Of a stretch of 64,000 bases of DNA, positions 1-43,200 are shown in pieces. How positions within the stretch are numbered: the stretch's first letter is position 1; every line of letters begins with the position of its first letter. The DNA is from Ureibacillus thermophilus (GTDB lineage: Bacteria > Bacillota > Bacilli > Bacillales_A > Planococcaceae): the NCBI RefSeq assembly GCF_004331915.1, contig NZ_CP036528.1, positions 1,807,145 through 1,871,144 of the forward strand. Reading direction: 5' to 3'. The position numbers and the translations under genes are program-made. Below the pieces are notes generated by a model. It had not been told where the DNA came from, made no database searches, and saw only the letters and a list, made by a program, of their open reading frames with translations.

Positions 1-156
1 AACCCTTGGTAACTCCTATTGGAGAAACCAAGGGCTGAAAAGTCTTGAAGCTCGTTATGAAAACTTGTGTCAATCATCTTAATTGAACCGCCGTATACGG
101 AACCGTATGTACGGTGGTGTGAGAGGACGGGAGTTAATCGCTCCCTCCTACTCGAT
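1..156 (+). mobile_element. 3' end of a group IIC intron (domains V and VI)
   Basis: The segment ends in a typical domain V hairpin at 87-118. The arms ACCGCCGTA (87-95) and TACGGTGGT (110-118) pair, an inner TACG/CGTA stem carries a GAAC loop, and a two-base bulge (TG, 108-109) lies on the 3' side. The catalytic triad position reads CGC, as in group IIC introns. A domain VI-like hairpin (GGGAG...CTCCC, 129-145) follows, and the intron probably ends at CTACTCGAT near 156. Bases 1-37 form another hairpin (CCCTTGGT/ACCAAGGG), probably domain IV or the stem after the reverse-transcriptase gene. The intron-encoded protein and 5' end lie outside the window. Confidence 0.85.
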
Positions 157-164
157 TTGGAAGA

Positions 165-500
165 ATAAAACATTGAGTGGGGATGAATAACTATTTAGTG
201 CGGATAGGCTATTAATTAGTTTATATAGAAGAATGTTTGGTTCGGGTATCTCCTTAATTGGTGCGAATGGAATCTCATTTAGTGTGGATGCCCCTTCTAT
301 TGGTGCGAATGGACACACATTTAGTTCGGATACTCCTTTAATTAGTGTGGATGGAATCTCAATTAGTTCGGATACCCCTTCAATTGATGCGGATGGAACC
401 TCAATTAGTTCGGATACCCCTTCAATTAGTGCGGATGGAACCTCATTTAGTTCGGATACTTCTTCAATGGGTGCAGATGGACCTCTATTAGTTCGACTCC
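165..500 (+). repeat. Array of about 16 tandem 21-bp units, intergenic
   Basis: A degenerate core TTAGTGCGGAT or TTAGTTCGGAT recurs with an exact 21-base period. The GTG/GTT of the core falls at 177, 198, 219, 240, 261, 282, 303, 324, 345, 366, 387, 408, 429, 450 and 471, with a last copy one base early at 491. In the better-preserved part the units tend to alternate between GTGCGGATGGAAC and GTTCGGATACCCC versions, giving a 42-bp higher-order period. Because 21 is divisible by three, a repetitive reading frame (233-556) runs through the array, but it has no convincing ribosome binding site and no recognisable domain. The array begins about 10-20 bases after the intron end. A related array in the opposite orientation lies at 19071-19238. 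Confidence 0.85.
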
Positions 501-522: not shown

Positions 523-568
523 TAGAAAAAGACTGCTAGAAAGATCACCTTTCTAACAGTCTTTTTAA
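523..568. terminator. Rho-independent terminator after the 21-bp array
   Basis: The stem AAAAAGACTG-TAGAAAG pairs with CTTTCTA-CAGTCTTTTT around a short loop, with A-tract and T-tract on either side. It can terminate in both directions, including for the convergent minus-strand cluster that ends at 674. Confidence 0.8.
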
Positions 569-673: not shown

Positions 674-1573
674 TTAAGAATGTTTTTCTGTCGCATTATT
701 CAAGATATCAATTAATGTTGAATAATGTTCTGGAGCTTGGTTATTTAAAATTTCTCGTACTTTTAAATCCACAAGCATCTGCAATTTTTCTTTAATTGCT
801 TTAGACATAGTTGCATCTACATTTAACATTTCAAGGGTACTGATGACTTCGCTCATTTCAGAAACGCGGCGCTCTACATGTATGGATGTACGGTTCAATA
901 ATAAATTGGCCGTTTCTTCCAAAGGGCGTTTTGTCACAGAATTATTAAGCGACTCCAGCACGATGTCAGATACTCCATAGATGCTGCTAGATTGAATCGT
1001 TTCAATGAGCAGCGCGGAAAAACCTTTCATGAAAATGCTTCTAAACATTTTTATGGCCGATGAACTGCCGGCTTTTTCGCTAATAAAAGTAACCTTCATA
1101 TTATACGAAGAAGCAAATTCTTCAAAAACTTTTGCTCCTGTACCGCTGATAAACATCGGCACTTGGTGCTTCCATAACGGCACGCTGTCCATTACCGCCA
1201 CATCAACAAAGGCTGCACCAGTATTTTCTAAAACTTCTGCAATTGCTTCCTTCACCATAGGGGAGGAAGCATTGATGTCAATATATACATGCTTTTCTGT
1301 CAAATAAGGAGCCACTTCCTTTGCTATCGGAAGCGCCACTTTAGCACTAGTTGCACAAAACACATAATTGCTTTTTTCCATTAACTCTTTCAAAGAATTC
1401 ACCAATTCAACACCATTTTCTTTAGCCCGTTGTTGGATGACGGCGCCTAAAGATGGATGATTGGCATTGACATCAAACGCATAAATGGATTCAATTCCTT
1501 CTTGTTTTAATCCTTGGGAAATCAAGTAGGCAGCTTCGCCATATCCAATAAAACCGACGGATGGTGTTGTCAT
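674..1573 (-). CDS. NAD(P)-dependent dehydrogenase, 6-phosphogluconate/3-hydroxyisobutyrate dehydrogenase superfamily, DUF1932 C-terminus
   Basis: The 299-residue protein has an N-terminal Rossmann fold with GFIGYGEAA at residues 7-15 (GxGxxA pattern). A helical C-terminal half follows, in which Lys175 (SAIKMFRS) matches the catalytic lysine position of the beta-hydroxyacid dehydrogenase superfamily. The C-terminal half resembles DUF1932 proteins. I chose the ATG at 1573 because GGAGGA lies just upstream; a TTG 15 bases earlier falls at the Shine-Dalgarno sequence itself. It is the last gene of a minus-strand cluster behind an aldolase and a PIG-L protein, so it probably oxidises or reduces an oxo/hydroxy acid made in that pathway. 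The substrate cannot be read from the sequence. Confidence 0.8.
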   Translation of the reverse strand: MTTPSVGFIGYGEAAYLISQGLKQEGIESIYAFDVNANHPSLGAVIQQRAKENGVELVNSLKELMEKSNYVFCATSAKVALPIAKEVAPYLTEKHVYIDINASSPMVKEAIAEVLENTGAAFVDVAVMDSVPLWKHQVPMFISGTGAKVFEEFASSYNMKVTFISEKAGSSSAIKMFRSIFMKGFSALLIETIQSSSIYGVSDIVLESLNNSVTKRPLEETANLLLNRTSIHVERRVSEMSEVISTLEMLNVDATMSKAIKEKLQMLVDLKVREILNNQAPEHYSTLIDILNNATEKHS

Positions 1574-1600
1574 TTTTTCTTCCTCCAATAAAACTTAAGA

Positions 1601-17661: not shown

Positions 17662-19020
17662 ATGTTTCAAAAAATATTAATTGCAAACCGCGGTGAAATA
17701 GCTAGAAGAGTGATTAGAACATGCAAAAAACTGAACATTCAAACAGTTGCAGTTTACTCTGAGGCAGACCGGGATGCACTGTTCGTACGAGAAGCCGACG
17801 AAGCCTATGAAATCGGCAAACCCCCTGTTTCCTTAAGCTATTTAAATATTGAAAAAATCATTGAGGTGGCAAAAAAGGCAAAGGTGGATGCCATTCATCC
17901 AGGCTACGGCTTGCTTTCTGAAAATGCGGAATTCGCTAAGCGCTGCGAAGAAGAAGGAATTACTTTTATTGGACCGAAACCGGAAGTTATTGCGGCAATG
18001 GGAAGCAAGTTGGAGGCAAGGGTGAAAATGAAGGAAGCCGGGGTGCCAATTATTGAAGGGATGAATGTGGCAATTGAAAGTGTGGAAGAAGCAATAAAAG
18101 CGGCTGAGGAAATCGGCTATCCGCTCATGTTAAAAGCTTCTAGCGGCGGTGGTGGCATCGGCATGCAGCGAATTTATCATCCAGAAGAGCTCGAAAAAGC
18201 CTTTGAAAGCAATAAAAAACGTGCTGAATCCTATTTTGGCGACGGCACGTTGTATATCGAAAAATGTATTGAAAATCCCCATCATGTGGAAGTACAAATT
18301 TTAGCTGATGTATATGGAAATGTGGTGCCGCTTTTTGAACGGGAATGCTCTATCCAGCGCCGAAATCAAAAGGTCATTGAAGAAGCACCATCCCCAACCC
18401 TTTCTGATACGACTCGAGAGAAAATGCTGGAGACAGCTGTTCAAGCGGCAAAGTACATCGGTTATACCAATGCAGGAACCTTTGAATTTTTAGTAGATGA
18501 AAAAGAGAATTTTTATTTCTTGGAAATGAATACCCGATTGCAAGTAGAGCATCCCGTAACGGAGGCAATTACCGGTATTGATTTAGTGGAACAGCAAATT
18601 AGAATTGCACAAGGGCTTCCGCTAGAAATTAATCGAGAATCTATAAAAATGAAAGGACATGCAATTGAAGCGCGTATTTATGCGGAAGATCCAGTTACCT
18701 TCTTTCCTTCACCAGGGACAATTACCTTATTGGAGTTGCCAGAGGGAGAAGGAATCCGCCATGATTGTGCCGTTGAATCAGGTTTCAATGTAACGCCATT
18801 TTATGATCCGATGATTGGAAAATTAATTTGTTATGGCGAAACCCGTGAACAAGCATGCGAACGCTTAATTCAAGCACTAAAACAATATAAAGTGGAAGGC
18901 ATTAAAACGAATATTCCAATGCTTATAAAAATTGCGAGCCATGAAGAATTTCTAAGAGGCAATATTACGACTAGTTTTGTAGAACATTATTATTTGCCTA
19001 ATGTACAAGTAACGAAGTAA
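17662..19020 (+). CDS. yngHA: Biotin carboxylase subunit of 3-methylcrotonyl-CoA carboxylase (YngHA-like)
   Basis: The protein (about 452 residues) has the ATP-grasp biotin carboxylase fold: FQKILIANRGEIARRVIRTCKKL at the start, HPGYGLLSENAEFA near residue 75, KASSGGGGIGMQ near 160 (glycine-rich ATP loop), EAPSPTL, and FLEMNTRLQVEHPVTE (catalytic Glu/Asn/Arg/Glu) near 290. It carboxylates biotin on the separate carrier protein. It ends before any biotinyl domain, so the carrier is the small gene at 19309. Two in-frame ATGs (17656, 17662) fit AAGGAG; I prefer the second on spacing and family start. Confidence 0.9.
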   Translation: MFQKILIANRGEIARRVIRTCKKLNIQTVAVYSEADRDALFVREADEAYEIGKPPVSLSYLNIEKIIEVAKKAKVDAIHPGYGLLSENAEFAKRCEEEGITFIGPKPEVIAAMGSKLEARVKMKEAGVPIIEGMNVAIESVEEAIKAAEEIGYPLMLKASSGGGGIGMQRIYHPEELEKAFESNKKRAESYFGDGTLYIEKCIENPHHVEVQILADVYGNVVPLFERECSIQRRNQKVIEEAPSPTLSDTTREKMLETAVQAAKYIGYTNAGTFEFLVDEKENFYFLEMNTRLQVEHPVTEAITGIDLVEQQIRIAQGLPLEINRESIKMKGHAIEARIYAEDPVTFFPSPGTITLLELPEGEGIRHDCAVESGFNVTPFYDPMIGKLICYGETREQACERLIQALKQYKVEGIKTNIPMLIKIASHEEFLRGNITTSFVEHYYLPNVQVTK

Positions 19021-19070
19021 TCGAATGTTCGGGGAAAAGGGTGTTGTTTTGATTGATATTGGATGAGGAA

Positions 19071-19238
19071 GTATTCGAACGAATTAAGGTGGTATCCGCA
19101 CCAAATGGAGAAGCAAACGCACAAAAGGATGCCGTATCCGCACAAAATGAGGAAGCATACGCACGAAATGAGTAAACAAACGCACTAAATAAGGATCTAT
19201 CCACCCTAAATTGGAATCTATCCGCACGAAATAGCATT
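19071..19238 (-). repeat. Eight tandem 21-bp units inside the leucine operon, reverse orientation of the array at 165-500
   Basis: Eight units start at 19071, 19092, 19113, 19134, 19155, 19176, 19197 and 19218, an exact 21-base step with no insertion or deletion. The best-kept core is GTATCCGCAC followed by one variable base and AAATGAGGAA. Its complement (ATTT-GTGCGGATAC) equals the core of the 165-500 array, so the two arrays are the same element in opposite orientations. It fills the 288-base gap between the biotin carboxylase and carrier genes, which are adjacent in B. subtilis, and is presumably transcribed with them. Confidence 0.85.
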
Positions 19239-42959: not shown

Positions 42960-42994
42960 TTTTGTAACAATTAAATAATTACTAGCCTCACTTT

Positions 42995-43170
42995 GTGGGG
43001 ATAGAGGTGCGGTATTTATTAGGTTCTCATTTAGCTGAGCGAGCGATGAGGTGGGAAAGTAGGAAATACCGCCGAAGCATAGTTGCCTGCTCAAACAACT
43101 ATGCTGGGGTTGCAGTGAATAACTGCAGCACTGTCTTACATAGTAAATATGTAAGGTGAGCTATCCAAAG
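42995..43170 (+). ncRNA. Lysine riboswitch (L box)
   Basis: The leader carries the conserved L-box landmarks: GGATAGAGGTGCGG at the 5' side, AGTAGGAAATACCGCCGAAG, the hairpin CATAGTTG...CAACTATG followed by CTGGGGTTGCAGT, ACTGCAGCACTGTCTTACA and the 3' side GTGAGCTATCC. The P1 stem pairs GGATAG (42999-43004) with CTATCC (43161-43166). Lysine binding stabilises P1 and favours the terminator at 43202. The downstream genes encode an amino-acid ABC transporter, so this aptamer points to lysine as its substrate and to off-regulation when lysine is plentiful. Confidence 0.93.
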
Positions 43171-43200
43171 TGGAACTAGGGGTATTTGTTTAACAATGAT

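Follow-up and report, generated by a model that had tools for sequence, protein, structure and literature searches.

The first 500 bases of a 64,000-nucleotide stretch of the Ureibacillus thermophilus chromosome (contig NZ_CP036528.1, positions 1,807,145 to 1,871,144 of the forward strand; hereafter the window) contain an array of short, same-direction core sequences spaced in steps of 21 bp, or two turns of the DNA helix. Arrays of this kind recur at dozens of places in the same genome and, with other core words, in some soil bacteria akin to Ureibacillus and Sporosarcina. We think it probable that they are DNA-level elements, in which sites of 8-10 bp that share one direction and one face of the helix are bound by a putative oligomerising, sequence-specific DNA-binding factor. 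Here, we describe the array and its family, and weigh this reading against tandem duplication, coding, RNA structure and DNA curvature.

Results

The array in the window

The 11-mer core starts at positions 174, 195, 216 and onward to 468, giving 15 units in 14 steps of exactly 21 bp, and the final core lies at 488, 20 bases past the one before it. A preliminary description of the window had recognised the early last copy but had counted 15 exact steps, one too many. The units are of unequal quality, those at 174 and 216 being degenerate and those at 237 and 468 weak. Nevertheless, the period-21 stack of eight units by eight columns scores 57 of 64, as against 31-38 at the remaining periods from 15 to 30 and a maximum of 44 in 5000 Markov resamples at period 21. 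Tandem Repeats Finder reports periods of 42 (236-495) and 21 (252-492), and over 11 units neighbours are 58% identical and next-neighbours 82%, which bears out the two alternating unit flavours and the 42-bp super-period noted earlier.

A family dispersed over the chromosome

The genome of U. thermophilus is a single contig of 3.02 Mb. The two-core pattern CGNACNAA-N13-CGNACNAA has 495 matches in it, compared with 2 for the reversed control, and BLAST searches with two arrays as queries returned 31 and 93 matches; the family is thus not confined to the two places, at the start of the window and near 19 kb, where it had first been seen. We read 41 array segments in 39 places, comprising 734 units at 4-64 units each. 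The array noted in the preliminary description is real, but its core is one among several lineage-specific cores (see below), and it is one of dozens of arrays in this genome.

Twelve of the 41 arrays lie at 957-1167 kb and eight between 2990 kb and 63 kb across the contig ends, both clusters exceeding uniform placement (simulated p = 0.003 and 0.005, respectively). The origin and terminus, as placed by GC skew, fall away from both. Ten array-flanking proteins that were scanned form a mixture, in which products of metabolic and envelope genes stand beside an SNF2 helicase, an AAA fragment and part of a transposase. The 64-unit array (L176 5954-7282; genome position 1130954) lies between a DDE transposase piece and an SNF2-type helicase gene.

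Sixteen of the 41 arrays overlap no called open reading frame (ORF) by more than 25 bp, and a further 21 are touched solely by ORFs with 60% or more of their length inside arrays, in agreement with the earlier view that such arrays are non-coding and intergenic. The other four overlap an ORF mostly outside the array, namely ORFs of 69, 101 and 311 aa and a fragment of an IS66 transposase, with which the overlap is 62 bp; the 101-aa and 311-aa ORFs had no Pfam match. A unit of 21 bp could in principle encode a heptapeptide repeat, and the long open frames that such units give, together with the called ORFs on 25 of the 41 arrays, speak for a repeat-protein gene. This explanation is nonetheless very improbable. 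The steps of relatives, which alternate between 20 and 21 bp or between 21 and 31 bp, break the frame; 14 of 92 unusual spacings (defined below) are multiples of 3; and stop codons are not consistently depleted relative to column shuffles, with 8 of 174 frame tests at or below 0.02, the majority of them in frames where stops remain numerous. The open frames across arrays follow from column composition. A coding repeat protein was rejected on the strength of the frame-breaking steps, the spacings and the lack of consistent stop depletion; the repetitive reading frame that had been foreseen as spurious is present in the window (Table 1).

Called neighbours flank 40 of the arrays on either side. 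The gap is tandem for 24 of these, convergent for 12 and divergent for 4, compared with 119, 28 and 40 among background gaps of 100 bp or longer from unbiased stretches of the genome (convergent, p = 0.037; divergent, p = 0.12). The strand of the array relative to its flanking genes is mixed (13 ++, 11 --, 12 +- and 4 -+, with 1 array that does not have both neighbours).

Period 21 in scans blind to the core

Core-based searches detect only arrays that carry the core in question, and counts from draft genomes are lower bounds, as contigs may break at arrays. In a core-blind scan, units were stacked at each period from 15 to 35. Without masking, 0.86 Mb gave 15 peaks at period 21, at least 3 of them in ordinary coding frames, and 2 peaks in total at the remaining 20 periods. 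With ORFs of at least 130 aa masked, 1.2 Mb from seven genomes gave, with either of two settings, 9 stacks at period 21 and none at any of the remaining 20 periods. This mask removes four of the five core arrays in the unbiased stretches of U. thermophilus, because of their spurious ORFs.

The words in these stacks differ between genomes (genomes and loci are cited by our G and L numbers). All three stacks in G187 have the core ACCG[AC]TCAT, and the single stack in G198 agrees with its CGCTCATA array. In G247, which has one core-pattern match only, three of five arrays have TGGCGGAT-like cores. The 400 kb of unbiased stretches in U. thermophilus hold six non-coding stacks, five of CGNACNAA and one of TGGCGATTA; arrays outside these stretches were chosen by core and are uninformative on core uniformity. 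Each genome tends to favour one core, although the numbers are small and there are exceptions.

Distribution

In a phylum sample of 398 genomes none but U. thermophilus has more than 3 matches to the CGNACNAA pattern. In a class sample of 398 genomes the counts outside the family reach at most 10 (G690), followed by 9 (G994), 7 (G966) and 6 (G661), and the ten in G690 are one identical 29-base unit, an interspersed repeat rather than an array. The reversed control pattern is itself raised, at 6-10 one-strand matches, in the family genomes G060, G071, G178, G180, G199, G224 and G260. A first wider contig scan for arrays returned zero. A second returned at least 118 stretches; among the matches listed, those outside Bacillales are mostly near-identical tandem units, and arrays with divergent spacers were recognised by eye in Fictibacillus, Ferdinandcohnia, Metabacillus, Alkalibacillus, Texcoconibacillus, Rossellomorea and Sporosarcina. 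Metabacillus mangrovi (L131) has, by eye, a CGGACAAA-like array that follows a terminator-like hairpin and seems to contain a higher-order repeat of 102 bp. Four of the pattern matches listed for G240, a genome of the same genus as U. thermophilus, recur without a changed letter in a locus of Lysinibacillus endophyticus, a species assigned by NCBI to Ureibacillus, so that the genus is probably Ureibacillus. G212 and a Sporosarcina metagenome-assembled genome have a contig in common, L054 and L240 being identical over 7000 bases. One array (L203:8165-8440) had no blastn match in plasmids or phages. A scan of viral contigs gave 65 three-core matches, of which, among those listed, many have near-identical units and some do not.

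Shared sites and replacement of the core

All five arrays fetched from G251 adjoin the same flanking DNA, in the same orientation, as an array of U. thermophilus, both flanks matching for three arrays and one flank for two. At these sites the units differ, as do their numbers (G251/U. thermophilus: 71/47, 23/13, 15/7, 17/8 and 18/5). G251 lacks a counterpart of the U. thermophilus array at 957627; in G253 a 21-bp array with a different core, CTTGGGCRGAT, lies downstream of that same gene. At the counterpart in G254 (L261, first 190 bases), a sequence that by eye resembles the 5' end of a group II intron follows a terminator-like hairpin, at a contig edge.

A second comparison was made in Sporosarcina, downstream of a 365-aa gene that is matched in 68 of 68 genomes of the genus. 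Among the 15 closest relatives a 21-bp array is present in six, which form one clade (Shimodaira-Hasegawa-like approximate likelihood ratio test, 100; quick tree), and absent from nine. The tree is used for its first 15 rows, those from L369 onward resting on a different, longer ORF, and changes of core along it were assessed visually. The core is CGCTCATA in G198 (only three units) and G194, CGMACCAA in G181 and G168, and YGMTCATA in G212; that of G182, read by eye as CGMKCSAA, falls below the stack threshold. Thus, three or four distinct cores occur among six carriers, and G212 differs in core from its sister G168. At this one site the core has been replaced while the 21-bp phase stayed. Further 21-bp arrays of Sporosarcina lie behind other genes (L369, L372, L371 and L370). 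Their cores resemble AACTGTMAKGGC, AACGAGAACT, AAGTACTCAAC and TTCATGG; the stack scored the first two, and the last two were read by eye.

Spacing is kept more than sequence

At the Sporosarcina site downstream of the 365-aa gene, the orthologous arrays of two species, G168 and G181, align without a gap over seven units, and the cores agree at 49 of 56 bases while the spacers agree at 33 of 91, which is near random. Spacing is conserved more than sequence, which is the test that the preliminary description had set. As the search pattern itself imposes one 21-bp pair, we examined cores beyond that pair, allowing at most 1 of 6 bases to be wrong. For 52 strict pairs in Sporosarcina a core stands at -21 in 71%, at -42 in 63% and at -63 in 58%, and at the printed offsets one base off in 0%; for 434 pairs in U. 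thermophilus the figures are 92, 84 and 76%, with 0-3% one base off.

Relatives that keep the core also use other steps, alternating 20/21 in G238 and G239 and 21/31 in G001 and G006, and steps of 20, 31, 41 and 52 bp occur overall. Of the consecutive spacings other than 21, 42 and 63 bp, pooled over 11 genomes (n = 92), 60 differ by no more than 1 bp from a multiple of 10.45, compared with 15.5% of integers; the best period is 10.35-10.45 bp, and 10.25-10.5 is almost equal. The same-face helical phasing that had been suggested is supported.

The arrays might instead be ordinary minisatellites, that is, neutral or selfish 21-bp tandem repeats that have been propagated and made uniform by slippage and recombination in tolerated intergenic places, without host function. 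We regard this as unlikely, though it is the most serious of the rival accounts. Tandem duplication does relate the units of G000, where alternating units are 74% identical, and of G251, which contains an 84-bp higher-order repeat; presence is patchy, copy number differs at orthologous sites, and at one site G251 has about 70 units and G253 only 9, where a collapsed G253 assembly is possible. In G168, however, adjacent spacers are 27% identical (G212, 38%; G181, 49%; G000, 53%) and the cores keep exact phase. Copying therefore accounts for much in some genomes and explains little of G168. The gapless footprint shared by G168 and G181, the yield of period 21 alone in the masked scan and the steps of 20, 31, 41 and 52 bp likewise argue against this account.

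Two other accounts are both improbable. Phased intrinsic curvature might itself be selected, with no need of a specific reader. Curvature was predicted with assumed wedge bending parameters, and the majority of 12 arrays have a greater predicted bend than their dinucleotide shuffles (z 1.7 to 11.5); in two of nine arrays it also exceeds that of column-permuted 21-bp arrays at or below 0.04. The other seven fall within the permuted arrays (0.08-0.68), the long G251 array L209 has no excess (z about 0), and a sequence-specific core should be superfluous to a bend. We rejected curvature as a shared property in view of L209 and the seven. An RNA-level element, such as a 3'-untranslated region or processing signal acting after transcription, appears marginally less probable still. 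The array at the Sporosarcina site lies between stop codon and terminator and so may be transcribed, and the folding of L241 falls below that of shuffled sequences on either strand (z about -3.5 and -3.2), but folding is not consistent across the 12 arrays tested, the strand relative to flanking genes is not fixed, and the spacing fits turns of B-DNA. RNA structure was rejected for want of a consistent signal in these 12 arrays.

Other features of the window

The group II intron that ends directly before the array was absent from the preliminary description. The frames flanking the second array (Table 1) were named by eye and resemble biotin carboxylase and a biotinyl carrier.

Table 1. Features of the window and their positions (position 1 is its first nucleotide)
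Feature	Position	Strand	Remarks
21-bp phased array	165..498	minus	core reads CGNACNAA on the minus and TTNGTNCG on the plus strand; 16 units, the first 14 steps being 21 bp and the last 20
Repetitive spurious ORF, 107 aa	233..556	plus	spans the array
Terminator-like hairpin with A-run and T-run	526..566		read by eye; separates the array from the 3' end of the gene at 674-1588 (minus strand)
Group II intron domain V	86..156	plus	Rfam RF00029; intron 3' end directly before the array
Second array, same family	19013..19230 (about)	plus	same core, opposite strand; genome position 1826157
Lysine riboswitch	42994..43171		RF00168

Discussion

Several known systems resemble these arrays in part. The DNA uptake sequences of Neisseriaceae are short, polar words spelt differently in related species, and to this extent their dialects are similar; they are dispersed singly or as inverted pairs, unlike the phased arrays described here. 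The orientation of FtsK-orienting polar sequences (KOPS) and similar chromosome-guide motifs follows the replichore, whereas here both orientations occur on the right (13+/11-) and left (9+/8-) replichores, as assigned from GC skew in 20 samples. Bacterial minisatellites, or variable-number tandem repeats, share tandem 21-bp units, changes of copy number and higher-order repeats, but the present arrays can keep core and phase with spacers that are unrelated, and their other steps are whole helical turns. In geometry the arrays resemble plasmid iterons (PMC4980987). Iterons are direct repeats, 17-22 bp in length and numbering two to seven in a single plasmid origin, that are bound cooperatively by a monomeric initiator, with cooperativity abolished by a separation of half a helical turn. 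Direct repeats of about that length, in helical register, are likewise found here; there are, however, 4-64 units in about 39 chromosomal places, with spacers that are possibly unrelated, rather than one origin, and no Rep domain was found in the ten scanned flanking proteins. The arrays share iteron geometry but are dispersed over the chromosome. The intergenic TAACTGA direct repeats of Beggiatoaceae (PMC4679880) also form many sets of a short word in one genome, for which a reader was suggested. They are tandem heptamer copies, mostly forward and upstream of start codons, whereas the present arrays have 8-10-bp cores with 11-13-bp spacers and changing words, a 21-bp step, mixed strand and predominantly tandem or convergent gaps.

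A word that predominates within a genome, is swapped between relatives and stands at whole helical turns is the expected trace of a genome-specific, oligomerising DNA-binding factor. The putative factor, which we infer to be a protein that binds cooperatively, would oligomerise along the DNA, its contacts two or sometimes three helical turns apart. The arrays also lengthen and become uniform through duplication in multiples of 21 bp. The resulting nucleoprotein rod might be architectural, either organising the nucleoid or forming a boundary past the ends of genes. We consider such a role likelier than promoter control, but this step is a weak one, made because the arrays tend, weakly, to avoid divergent gaps.

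Several observations weigh against a reader of this kind. A search for the gene of the putative reader was without success. Most genomes of the family show control-level counts of the CGNACNAA pattern, and the masked scan found no stack in 60 kb of G255 or 140 kb of G184. The arrays are dispensable, as the nine Sporosarcina relatives without one indicate. Thirty-two of the 92 unusual spacings are out of phase. The higher-order repeat of G251 and the spacer identities in G181 and G000 point to copying, and duplication alone keeps multiples of 21. Finally, the TGGCGATTA stack is a second core in U. thermophilus, G212 has CGMACCAA arrays elsewhere in its genome, and two cores probably coexist in G253; a single-reader model must account for the two cores in G212 and G253.

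No prior description of these arrays was found in searches of an open-access library of papers. We suggest, more tentatively than for the DNA-level element itself, that they may constitute a new class of bacterial chromosomal element, with dozens of same-face arrays of a lineage-specific word per genome, a putative reader of fast-evolving specificity and a fixed two-turn oligomer geometry, and might thus represent a fast-turnover, satellite-like system of chromosome addressing. In practice, the arrays are liable to be annotated as hypothetical repeat proteins, and they could serve as ready bait for finding the reader. The combination of helix-fixed spacing with a changing word would provide a natural experiment that parts geometry from sequence specificity. 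If the proposal is true, members of a bacterial family possess a chromosomal binding system that has gone unrecognised, and the richest genomes contain hundreds of its sites.
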